In this document: piece after piece, positions 21,123 to 51,233 of the stretch
Position numbering within the stretch: the first letter of the stretch is position 1
How the letters are laid out: every line of letters begins with the position of its first letter
Assembly (NCBI GenBank): GCA_035283685.1
Contig: DATETJ010000004.1
Location: forward strand, 62,001-126,000
Reading direction: 5' to 3'
Length of the DNA: 64,000 nucleotides
From: Candidatus Bathyarchaeia archaeon
GTDB taxonomy: Archaea > Thermoproteota > Bathyarchaeia > Bathyarchaeales > Bathyarchaeaceae
Notes under the pieces: generated by a model
What the model saw: the letters and a program-made list of their open reading frames with translations, nothing else
Database searches by the model: none
What the model was told of the DNA's origin: nothing
Program-made: the position numbers and the translations under genes

Positions 21123-22916
21123 CTAGTCTTTGCCTGCAGAAACATAGTAGTATTCGTTAGCCTTTTTCTGGTGGCGATCCATCTTGGAGCCTTCTTTGTT
21201 GACTCGGGGTCTTTTTGTTTCTGGATCTCGGCGGAAGGTTATGTTCATGTCCTTGAGGAACAGGTTCATCCCCTTACGAAGAGAAGTTGGTGCTGCAGCT
21301 GTGCCTTTGACTCCTGGATCACCCTTGAATATCATGAGTCGATCCGCAATGAAGTCCTGTGCCACAACATCGTGCTCGACCACGAATGCCACAGCGTTTC
21401 GGGTTTCTACCACGCGTCGTATGATTCTAGCCACGGCTAACCTTTCTTCCACGTCTAGGTAAGCACTGGGCTCGTCAAGCAAGTAAACGAACGCTTTCTT
21501 AGAGAGGCAAGCGCTAATGGCAACTCTCTGCAGCTCACCTCCACTAAGTTGAGCAACATCTCTTTCTAGCAGTAGCTCCAAGTCTAGGGGTTGCATGATC
21601 TCGCTTTTGTACCAGCCAGAGCCGAATTCATCTTTTGCCATCCCACGGAGCAACTGCTCCACTGTGCCCTGATATTCCGCTGAGATGTACTGCGGCTTGT
21701 AGCTTACGGCTGAGTCGCTCTGCATCGGAGATACGCCTATATCGGGTTTCTCGATTCCAGCCAGAAGCTTGACGAACGTGGTTTTTCCGATGCCGTTTGG
21801 ACCTAGTATGCCAATTACTTCGCCCAAGCCAGCTTCTCCAGCTTCGACAGCCAATGAGAAACCGCTGTATGTCTTCTGCATTTCTTCCCATTTCAGCACG
21901 ATTTCATCAGCTGCCCAGCCTGCTGTAGGTGGCTTAACATGGAAGATTATGGGTTCCTTGCGGAAACGCACATTTTCGTCTGGCACAAAGCCTTCCAGGT
22001 AGATGTTTATGCCCGTGCGCACCGCATGCACGTGGCTGACTATGCCGTAGACTGCTGGGCAACCATAGAAGACGCATATGTAGTCGGAAAGGTAGTCCAG
22101 TATGGCCAAGTCGTGTTCAGCCACGATGACGGTTTTGCCTTCATCCTTAAGGCCACGTATCACTCGGGCTGCCTGCAAGCGTTGTTGCACGTCTAGGTAG
22201 CTTGAGGGTTCGTCGAAAAGATAGACATCGGCGTTGCGGCTGATTGACGCGGCGATAGCGACGCGTTGCAGTTCGCCGCCGCTGAGCACATCTAGTGTAC
22301 GGTCTAGAATGCTGCTTAATTGGAGCTGTTCGGTCAACGTCTTGAAAACGCCTCGTTCATCAACTCTTCTGAGCAGTTCGCCTACTTCGCCTGAAATAGC
22401 TTGAGGCAACTTGTCAACGTACTGCGGTTTTGAAACCACTCGCAACTGTTTCTGGCTTAATCTCAGCAAGTAGTCCTGTAGGGTTGAACCTCTGAAATGT
22501 TGGATGATCTCAGGCCATTTAGGGGGCTGCTCGTACTTCCCAAGGTTTAACTTGATTTCGCCCGAAAGAATTTTAAGGGCGGTGCTCTTGCCGATGCCGT
22601 TCTGACCTAACAGCCCGAGCACGCCACTAGGGGAGGGAAGCGGTAGGCGAAAGAGTTTGAATGTGTTGGCTCCGAAGCGATGGCTGCATTCGCCTTCGAG
22701 TTCGTCTGGTAAGTTGACGACTGATAAGGCTTTGAAAGGGCATTTTCGGACGCATATACCACAACCAACGCAGAGAGATTCCACAACAATGGGTTTGTCA
22801 CCCTCAAACCGTATTGCTTCTATTTTGCTGCGTACTGGCGGACAAAATCGATAGCATACTTTGCCACAACGTTTCGGCTGGCATTTGTCCTCATCTAGAA
22901 CGGCGACTCGAACCAT
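21123..22916 (-). CDS. ABCE1/Rli1 ribosome recycling ATPase
   Basis: Ribosome-splitting twin ABC ATPase. Seen: two N-terminal 4Fe-4S clusters (CQPKRCGKVCYRFCPP and CVGCGICVRKCPFKAL), NBD1 Walker A GQNGIGKST with signature LSGGELQRVAIA and VYLFDEPSSYLD, then NBD2 Walker A GPNGIGKTT with a second LSGGELQRVAIS and LLDEPSAYLD. The C-terminal region ends with the conserved FRRDPETKRPRVNK stretch. Known: works after aRF1 or pelota to split the 70S ribosome and recycle subunits. The ATG at 22916 (MVRVAVLD) is the true start; the frame runs to 22952 but those residues precede the conserved N-terminus. Length is normal. Confidence 0.96.
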   Translation of the reverse strand: MVRVAVLDEDKCQPKRCGKVCYRFCPPVRSKIEAIRFEGDKPIVVESLCVGCGICVRKCPFKALSVVNLPDELEGECSHRFGANTFKLFRLPLPSPSGVLGLLGQNGIGKSTALKILSGEIKLNLGKYEQPPKWPEIIQHFRGSTLQDYLLRLSQKQLRVVSKPQYVDKLPQAISGEVGELLRRVDERGVFKTLTEQLQLSSILDRTLDVLSGGELQRVAIAASISRNADVYLFDEPSSYLDVQQRLQAARVIRGLKDEGKTVIVAEHDLAILDYLSDYICVFYGCPAVYGIVSHVHAVRTGINIYLEGFVPDENVRFRKEPIIFHVKPPTAGWAADEIVLKWEEMQKTYSGFSLAVEAGEAGLGEVIGILGPNGIGKTTFVKLLAGIEKPDIGVSPMQSDSAVSYKPQYISAEYQGTVEQLLRGMAKDEFGSGWYKSEIMQPLDLELLLERDVAQLSGGELQRVAISACLSKKAFVYLLDEPSAYLDVEERLAVARIIRRVVETRNAVAFVVEHDVVAQDFIADRLMIFKGDPGVKGTAAAPTSLRKGMNLFLKDMNITFRRDPETKRPRVNKEGSKMDRHQKKANEYYYVSAGKD

Positions 22917-23066
22917 GGGGCTGCTGATGCTCCAACTCTTACGATGAAACAAAAATCAATAGAGAGAGCTGGTTATAAACTTGCGTTACAAAATGAAGAA
23001 ATCGATCGAATAATAAGGACATATGTTCAAAACAATAGTAAGAAAAACTTGCGCTTTGCATTGCGG

Positions 23067-23141
23067 CTACCATTCTTCTTCTTCCCATTCTTCGTCGTCA
23101 ACTCCTTCTTCTTCGCCTTCTTCTTCCCATTCTTCCTCCAA
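23067..23141 (-). CDS. Acidic microprotein of about 24-27 residues
   Basis: A tiny gene preceded by a strong Shine-Dalgarno: on the minus strand GGAGGTG (23154-23148) lies 6 nt before TTG at 23141-23139. The 24-residue product is nearly all Glu and Asp with regularly placed Trp. It starts MEEEWEEEGEEEG, continues VDDEEW, and ends EEEEW before a TAG at 23067. An in-frame GTG at 23150 would add MKT in front. There are no basic residues in the 24-residue form. The sequence lies between ABCE1 and an ABC transporter gene and is antisense to nothing recognised. No family is recognised; a DNA-mimic or metal/basic-protein-binding peptide is conceivable (inference). Confidence 0.55.
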   Translation of the reverse strand: MEEEWEEEGEEEGVDDEEWEEEEW

Positions 23142-23359
23142 AGTTTTCACCTCCCCCTATGGGTGTGAGCATCCTTAGAAGACCCATGCTTGGTTTTTTA
23201 AGGGTTTCCGTTCGGCTATTGACGAAAGCTGGGTCGGTGAGAAGAGAGTTTCTTGGCGGCGTTGTCGGTTATGTTTGCCTTCGAGCGTTCAATTCTGGGG
23301 TGTCTTTCTGTGGGTCAAAAAGGGGCTTTGGTGGCTGTTGTGGCAGTGAGGAAATTCTT

Positions 23360-42826: not shown

Positions 42827-42930
42827 GCAGCGGTAGCCAAGCCAGGTCAAAGCCGAAAAAGGCGACATCAGGCGAAGGACTCAAGATCCTTTCCCGTAGG
42901 GGTTCGCAGGTTCAAATCCTGCCCGCTGCA
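42827..42930 (+). tRNA. tRNA-Leu(CAA), with a 19-nt insert in the D arm
   Basis: Acceptor GCAGCGG pairs with CCGCTGC, followed by discriminator A and CCA (42931-42933). The anticodon stem AAGGA/TCCTT encloses CTCAAGA, giving anticodon CAA. A long variable arm and T arm GCAGG/CCTGC around TTCAAAT complete a type II leucine tRNA. The 3' strand of the D stem is interrupted by 42852-42870. Removing these 19 nt gives a normal D arm and an ~85-nt tRNA. The insert forms a GCC/GGC hairpin and, with GTC/GAC next to it, resembles a bulge-helix-bulge. It may be an archaeal intron at an unusual site, or the gene may be inactive. Confidence 0.8.
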
Positions 42931-50526: not shown

Positions 50527-51054
50527 TTAGGTGTATATGTTGAGCAAACGTCGATTCACCAGAACTGCTATGATAACCTCGCTTACAATCAATTCGACGA
50601 TGAGATAGCCTCCATTGTATGAAGCCGAGTAAAGAATCGGACTCATGCCCACAGGTGCATATTCAGCGAAGAACCAAACGCCAGCCGCAAAGTGAGCCAC
50701 AAAGCGACCAAAGATGCCAACAGGCGCGCCAAACAGCGGATACTTTCTGAACAGTCCTGCCAAGCCGAGAGCGGCGAAAGCAATCGGATAGTCAAGCAAC
50801 GCTTGAACAGGATCAACAATGAAGCTGCCAGGCAAAGCCATGTGGATGAGACCATAAACTGTGCCCGCCTCCAAGCCAGCCCGCAAGCCGCGCCGAAGCG
50901 AGAACCAGAGCAGTGGCAACATGCCTGCCGCTGTTACCGATCCGCCTTGTGGAAGTTCAAAGATTGGGGGCAGTACATCCCTAAGTATGATCGCCAAGGC
51001 GATGAAAACTGCGCCTTCTGCTAAGATCTTGGTTTGAGAAGCTTTTTCGCTCAT
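50527..51054 (-). CDS. thiT: Thiamine transporter ThiT (ECF substrate-binding subunit)
   Basis: Membrane protein of 175 residues with six helices that fits the ThiT S-component. Seen: an N-terminal helix LAEGAVFIALAIILRDVL, GMLPLLWFSLRRGLRAG, the AGLVYG-like LEAGTVYGLIHMA, DPVQALLDYPIAFAALGLAG and the FAEYAPVGMSPILYSASYNG loop with the thiamine-binding residues typical of ThiT. A TPP riboswitch immediately upstream independently supports a thiamine role. ECF ATPases are not adjacent. Confidence 0.82.
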   Translation of the reverse strand: MSEKASQTKILAEGAVFIALAIILRDVLPPIFELPQGGSVTAAGMLPLLWFSLRRGLRAGLEAGTVYGLIHMALPGSFIVDPVQALLDYPIAFAALGLAGLFRKYPLFGAPVGIFGRFVAHFAAGVWFFAEYAPVGMSPILYSASYNGGYLIVELIVSEVIIAVLVNRRLLNIYT

Positions 51055-51063
51055 TTCTTCTTT

Positions 51064-51160
51064 TATCCCTCCCTACGCCAGCATTATCTGGATCAGGTTC
51101 TAAGGGTCGACGACGCCTTAGTCGTCCTCTCAGCCAGGTCTTCCCCAGCTCCCCTAGATT
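51064..51160 (-). promoter_or_regulatory. TPP riboswitch upstream of thiT
   Basis: Minus-strand THI-box elements: GGGGAGC near 51154, CTGAGAGG at about 51131, then GACCCTTAGAACCTGATC and CAGATAATGCTGGCG, ending with AGGGAGGGAT just before the coding start. These are the conserved TPP-binding cores (CUGAGA, ACCC, GAACCUGAUC and GCG.AGGGA). The 3' end of P1 covers the GGAGGG Shine-Dalgarno about 11 nt from the ATG at 51054, so translational repression is likely. A TATA-like TTAAATAG at about 51183-51190 places transcription start near the 5' end of the riboswitch. Confidence 0.88.
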
Positions 51161-51233
51161 TCATTGAGAAACAGAGGTTCAGCTATTTAACACTAATCAT
51201 AGGAGTCCCACATGGTTGAATTGCTGTCGTTAC

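Follow-up and report, generated by a model that had tools for sequence, protein, structure and literature searches.

The C-terminal tail of the archaeal P-stalk protein aP1 binds translation factors including ABCE1, and eIF3j is a protein of about 25–30 kDa. The acidic N-terminal motif of eIF3j inserts Trp52 into an RRM pocket (PMC2824034). In recycling, ABCE1 is aided by eIF3j (PMC7196836); for yeast HCR1 an interaction with ABCE1/RLI1 has been described, and when HCR1 is lost, high-dosage RLI1 rescues the resulting defects in growth and termination (PMC5737393). The window (the whole stretch of 64,000 nucleotides that was analysed) harbors a micro-ORF of 24 codons, flanked by ABCE1 on one side and by a divergent ABC transporter on the other. 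The peptide contains no basic residues: nearly all positions are Glu or Asp, three are Trp (the third being the C-terminal residue) and the remainder are Gly or Val. Judged from sequence comparison, the micro-ORF is a real gene, and there is strong support for a translated acidic microprotein with a link to ABCE1.

The features of the locus are collected in Table 1. The micro-ORF has the layout of an independent gene: it comes with its own Shine-Dalgarno (SD) sequence, TATA-like box and T5 run, and a second TATA-like box belongs to ABCE1. Among 83 relatives, AT-only octamers cluster at −75 to −55 relative to the start codon, and 86% have a run of at least 5 Ts no more than 90 nt from the stop, as against 49% in shuffles (maximum 64%, 200 shuffles). 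An earlier note on this DNA had described the GGAGGTG ahead of a TTG start and a short frame without basic residues, almost all Glu/Asp with three Trp and closed by TAG, and the present reading bears this out, with the correction that the third Trp is the C-terminal residue. The in-frame GTG that it proposed as a slight extension does exist and would add VKT, but it was dropped as a start in favor of TTG, because it belongs to the SD sequence and the GTG that corresponds to it in the relatives L015, L017, L019, L020 and L024 is not in frame.

Table 1. Features of the micro-ORF locus (positions in the window).
Feature	Position	Strand	Basis
Micro-ORF, 24 aa LEEEWEEEGEEEGVDDEEWEEEEW, TTG start, TAG stop	23067..23141	−	sequence reading; relatives
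Shine-Dalgarno GGAGGTG, 6 nt 5' of TTG	23148..23154	−	kept in most relatives
TATA-like box CTTAAAAAA of the micro-gene	23194..23202	−	sequence reading; position of AT-octamers in relatives
In-frame GTG extension VKT, overlapping SD; judged not to be the start	23142..23150	−	frame in relatives
T5 run, putative archaeal terminator, 20 nt 3' of stop	23043..23047	−	T-run excess in relatives
TATA-like box TTTATAA of ABCE1, downstream of micro-ORF	22973..22979	−	similar box in relatives
ABCE1, ribosome-splitting ATPase, ATG at 22916	21123..22916	−	

Elsewhere in the window a TPP riboswitch is found at 51053–51165 (minus strand), as well as a tRNA at 42827–42930 (plus strand) that was matched by Rfam and missed by ARAGORN; its length of 104 nt points to an intron.

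We read the regions upstream of ABCE1 at loci drawn from searches of 27 genomes of the same family and 151 of the same order. The same SD sequence, a TTG, GTG or ATG start, a Glu-rich body, spaced Trp residues and a C-terminal Trp recur in the relatives, e.g. in the peptides VEEEEEWEEDEDLEDEEEEW, MVEEEDWEEEEEWEEEDWEEEEEW, MIFEEEDEWEEGEDEEWEEEEW and MREEEEEWEEEEEEEWEEEEW. The earlier note had called for a search for conserved neighbors of ABCE1 and had taken the lack of a homologous short ORF in relatives as counting against its idea; such homologues do lie upstream of ABCE1. An acidic-aromatic ORF is present on the ABCE1 strand, at most 300 nt upstream, in 54 of the 98 order genomes with 300 nt or more of sequence ahead of ABCE1, and in a further 4 of the 98 within the next 900 nt; the antisense strand gave 0/98 and dinucleotide shuffles 0/1960, so that the recurrence exceeds chance. 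In 44 of the 98 there is no such ORF within 300 nt of ABCE1. The collected set comprises 83 cases, i.e. 82 distinct ORFs of 16–37 codons, in which Glu and Asp make up 70% and Trp 15% of residues. The distance between Trp residues in these 82 ORFs is 5 in 106 cases, 8 in 35, 6 in 19 and 4 in 6.

This spacing bears on the idea of a DSS1/Sem1-like acidic-aromatic peptide with a ubiquitin-like, PCI or OB-fold partner. Disordered ubiquitin-binding motifs need negative charge together with aromatic residues, Trp being preferred (PMC9381478), which would suit the composition found here. The optimal aromatic spacing in those motifs is 2–3 residues, however, and the micro-ORFs do not share it, their usual Trp–Trp distance being 5. 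Inspection of neighborhoods by eye likewise did not tie the micro-ORFs to proteasome, ubiquitin-like or RPA genes, and such a partner appears distinctly unlikely.

Some other elements were seen upstream of ABCE1. At L011 (~130–210 nt upstream) the micro-ORF is interrupted at a Trp position by an in-frame TGA followed by EEEEW-stop, which may reflect either recent decay or recoding. Family f9 has a Lys/Glu micro-ORF (MPKKKKAEEKKEEKAEEKKK and similar) in place of the acidic one of its relatives (L044:1317, minus strand; L048:1269 and L065:1346, plus strand). A conserved non-coding stretch, GGTCAGCGCAGGCTAGTG...GCTCCAACCGTCGCC.CACATCATCCC, lies ~150–420 nt upstream in L014, L016, L021 and L047; it has no Rfam match at the gathering threshold and is possibly a new RNA.

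Between 43 nearest same-length pairs of ORFs, A<->G changes number 13, 13 and 88 at codon positions 1, 2 and 3 (chi-square p=4e-22, a nominal value, as the ORFs were pre-selected for acidity and nearest pairs may share sequences). This codon-position bias, for which the earlier note had suggested looking, means that selection acts on the peptide and not on a purine repeat: a purine tract maintained at the DNA level would not spare changes of GAA to AAA (Lys) or GGA (Gly). The alternative of a non-protein element, be it a purine-rich DNA repeat whose expansion produced the acidic residues or a regulatory RNA such as an SD-like sponge, draws on the purine-rich ORF with its SD-like GGAGGA repeats. 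By the third-position bias the repeat origin is rejected, and the in-frame Trp codons and stop likewise speak against a non-protein element. RNA structure gives no signal, since folding in the window is unremarkable (z = −0.91) and Rfam has no match at the locus; the constraint is at the codon level instead. The non-protein reading is thus largely refuted by the codon-position test and can be regarded as highly improbable.

The most conserved feature of the peptide is its C-terminal Trp (occasionally Phe). In 58 distinct 11-codon tails positions −5 to −2 are always Glu or Asp, with the reservation that the final Glu/Asp-Trp-stop was demanded by the selection rule of the tail script, so that invariance there is not independent evidence. 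Manual reading of the relatives gave the same Glu/Asp-Trp-stop ending with few exceptions, namely EEEE-stop in L010, EDEEDEE-stop in L024, EDEF in L259 and EEF in L277. This feature lay beyond the view of the earlier note, as did the phylum-wide spread and the copies away from ABCE1.

In the class, 80 of 257 genomes have a match to the pattern WEEEEW-stop; in the phylum, 59 of 398 have one to [DE][DE]WEEE[DE]W-stop, mostly near ABCE1; reversed-pattern controls gave zero in both scans, and the strictness of the patterns makes these counts underestimates. Within the class but beyond the order, a copy upstream of ABCE1 is found in families f15, f16, f17, f18 and f23, and in other classes in f30, f32, f34, f38, f40, f42, f49, f54, f55, f56, f57, f63, f68 and f72. 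For distant copies low complexity precludes alignment and homology rests on anatomy and position; convergence is a possible origin for them. Families f9, f10, f27 and f29 have no match with the strict patterns, and some of the families without a copy may truly have lost the gene.

The position of the copies is not uniform. The micro-gene is divergent to ABCE1 in L156, acidic ORFs are antisense to it and ~0.7 kb off in L279 and L280, and the distance is 1–3 kb in L226–L229; in L148, L149 and L152 the micro-gene does not adjoin ABCE1, and in L194–L222 acidic copies also lie elsewhere in the genome. Among genomes of the family, 11 of 14 without an intact copy at ABCE1 carry an acidic ...W-stop micro-ORF elsewhere as against 1 of 9 with an intact copy (Fisher p=0.003, or 0.013 with the zinc-finger protein of G014 included, genomes being treated as unrelated). 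Such a complementary distribution fits a gene that is needed in trans and can be replaced by a paralogue. A small zinc-finger protein in L150 (MSVCARCKKVVDKVYRCTNCGIDFCKDCGVPRNSLCTFCMSYKVEEETWEEEEW, ORF ending at 2458) ends in the same WEEEEW tail, which suggests a modular C-terminal motif.

These positions are also what weighs on a cis-acting acidic leader, the translation of which would destabilize ribosomes (intrinsic ribosome destabilization, as with E. coli MgtL) or stall them and so tune ABCE1 expression as a feedback sensor. Such a leader agrees with the copies being mostly on the same strand and at most 300 nt upstream of ABCE1, and consecutive N-terminal acidic residues do cause drop-off of bacterial ribosomes, which an ABC-F protein counters (PMC11282234). 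It does not agree with the divergent, antisense and distant copies, nor with the T-run of the micro-gene and the separate TATA-like box of ABCE1, and drop-off does not need a conserved C-terminal Trp. On these grounds the product most likely acts in trans, and a cis-acting leader seems unlikely.

In family f1, eight acidic copies away from ABCE1 (L194, L196, L197, L203, L211, L212, L217 and L220, near position 1500) are directly followed 3', after a gap of ~2–60 nt, by a Lys-rich micro-ORF (e.g. MGKKKGKKGKGKKKE, MAKKKGKAKKKGKAQSAR and MPKKKKGKKKGKGKEK). Each pair has the form of an acidic-plus-basic bicistronic micro-operon. Block-charged micro-ORFs, in which a Lys block is joined to an acidic one that closes with Trp (MSKKKPAKKEEEEEEEEEEEPEEEEEW and MSKKKAKKKTKKKEKEEEW), were seen in L208 and L210 (near 1500) and at L212:1875 (minus strand).

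The binding of a basic protein such as a ribosomal factor, or mimicry of nucleic acid, had been raised by the earlier note, and in general terms both are plausible. In a specific form, the peptide would act as an acidic chaperone, or as a mimic of nucleic acid, toward a basic partner (ribosomal protein, chromatin protein or Lys-rich micropeptide) and would not be specific to ABCE1, its position reflecting a cluster of translation or biogenesis genes. The ~70% of acidic residues and the Lys-rich ORFs behind the f1 copies speak for this explanation, but the periodic Trp (mostly 5 apart) and the near-constant C-terminal Trp exceed the needs of charge neutralization, and the ABCE1-linked copies that were examined had no Lys-rich micro-ORF next to them. 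It is a possible though somewhat doubtful explanation.

The gene anatomy, the selection on the peptide, the phylum-wide spread, the linkage to ABCE1 and the existence of unlinked and divergent copies are computational results. The reading that we prefer, with a probability of about 0.4, is that of a real, independently transcribed microprotein gene, the probably disordered product of which acts in trans, most likely on ABCE1 or the ABCE1-bound 30S subunit. The divergent, antisense and distant copies favor action in trans, as do the micro-gene's T-run and the separate TATA-like box of ABCE1. The product, presumably translated in vivo, would be a peptide of ~16–37 residues; lacking a hydrophobic core, it is most likely disordered, a string of multivalent (E/D)3-5-W short motifs with a free C-terminal Trp (occasionally Phe). 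Its conserved properties are net charge, Trp spacing of mostly 5 and the terminal aromatic residue. The acidic stretches might attach to a basic surface, either on ABCE1 or on the 30S subunit to which ABCE1 is bound, with the Trp side chains, the terminal one foremost, entering hydrophobic pockets; in this way ribosome splitting or the hand-over to initiation could be modulated, much as eIF3j does in eukaryotes with its acidic-Trp N-terminus. Because ABCE1 is the persistent neighbor, our guess for the partner is ABCE1 or its complex with 30S. This assignment is weakened by the 44 of 98 order genomes without a linked copy, by the four families without a match and by the pairing of some distant copies with Lys-rich micro-ORFs. 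The micro-ORF may thus encode a partner of archaeal translation that has escaped notice, and if the peptide does bind ABCE1 or 30S, it offers a direct handle on the control of archaeal ribosome recycling and on the question of an ancestral origin of eIF3j-like control.

No known family could be named for the micro-ORFs, as the earlier note had it: the Pfam, NCBIfam and PHROG profiles gave 0 families at E<=1, and a search of PDB chains gave no meaningful relative. A contig scan with ABCE1 returned bacterial ABC proteins only. Searches of the open-access PMC literature gave no description of the micro-ORF, an anonymous "hypothetical protein" entry being possible. A conserved gene of ~24 codons thus adjoins an enzyme that ranks among the most conserved in archaeal translation, with no match in the family libraries searched. 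It was probably overlooked because standard gene calling misses genes so short and of such low complexity; ultra-short, low-complexity proteins can stay under strict selection across a phylum.

Several known systems share parts of its design. DSS1/Sem1 and the disordered ubiquitin-binding motifs have the same disordered-type composition of acidic residues and Trp, whereas the micro-ORF is shorter, Glu-based, ends in Trp and neighbors ABCE1. Acidic leaders of the MgtL type are likewise short ORFs, acidic near the start (consecutive acidic residues fall within the first 30 codons here as well) and usually upstream of another gene. The same-strand 5' leader position is usual for the micro-ORF but not general, and it differs from such leaders in its divergent, antisense and distant copies, its terminator-like run and its conservation to the last residue. 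The tail of aP1 also has an acidic stretch followed by a hydrophobic C-terminus; likeness to it was checked and rejected; the micro-ORFs lack an LFG-type hydrophobic end. The genome's own aP1, a separate gene, ends in KKEEAAIEGLGALFG and not in EEEEW.

The closest parallel is eIF3j/HCR1. An acidic run surrounds Trp in both, a resemblance of composition only, and eIF3j works with ABCE1 in recycling and has been described as binding it, while the tie to ABCE1 here is gene linkage. The micro-ORF product is free-standing (16–37 aa), with a repeated motif and a C-terminal Trp, and has neither a folded domain nor eIF3b; the protein body that eIF3j has beyond its acidic motif is absent (0 Pfam matches), and homology to eIF3j/HCR1 is not detectable. 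The analogy is further weakened by the eIF3b RRM pocket used by eIF3j, of which no archaeal counterpart is known. By analogy, the micro-ORF would work like eIF3j and not be a member of its family. It is a rather doubtful extension that the peptide is a phylum-wide archaeal ABCE1 accessory, i.e. a stand-alone acidic-Trp factor regulating splitting or the ABCE1–30S complex and functionally equivalent to the eIF3j motif; if true, an eIF3j-like layer of recycling control would predate eukaryotic eIF3. We regard the micro-ORF product as a new protein family; its probable mode of binding has analogues.
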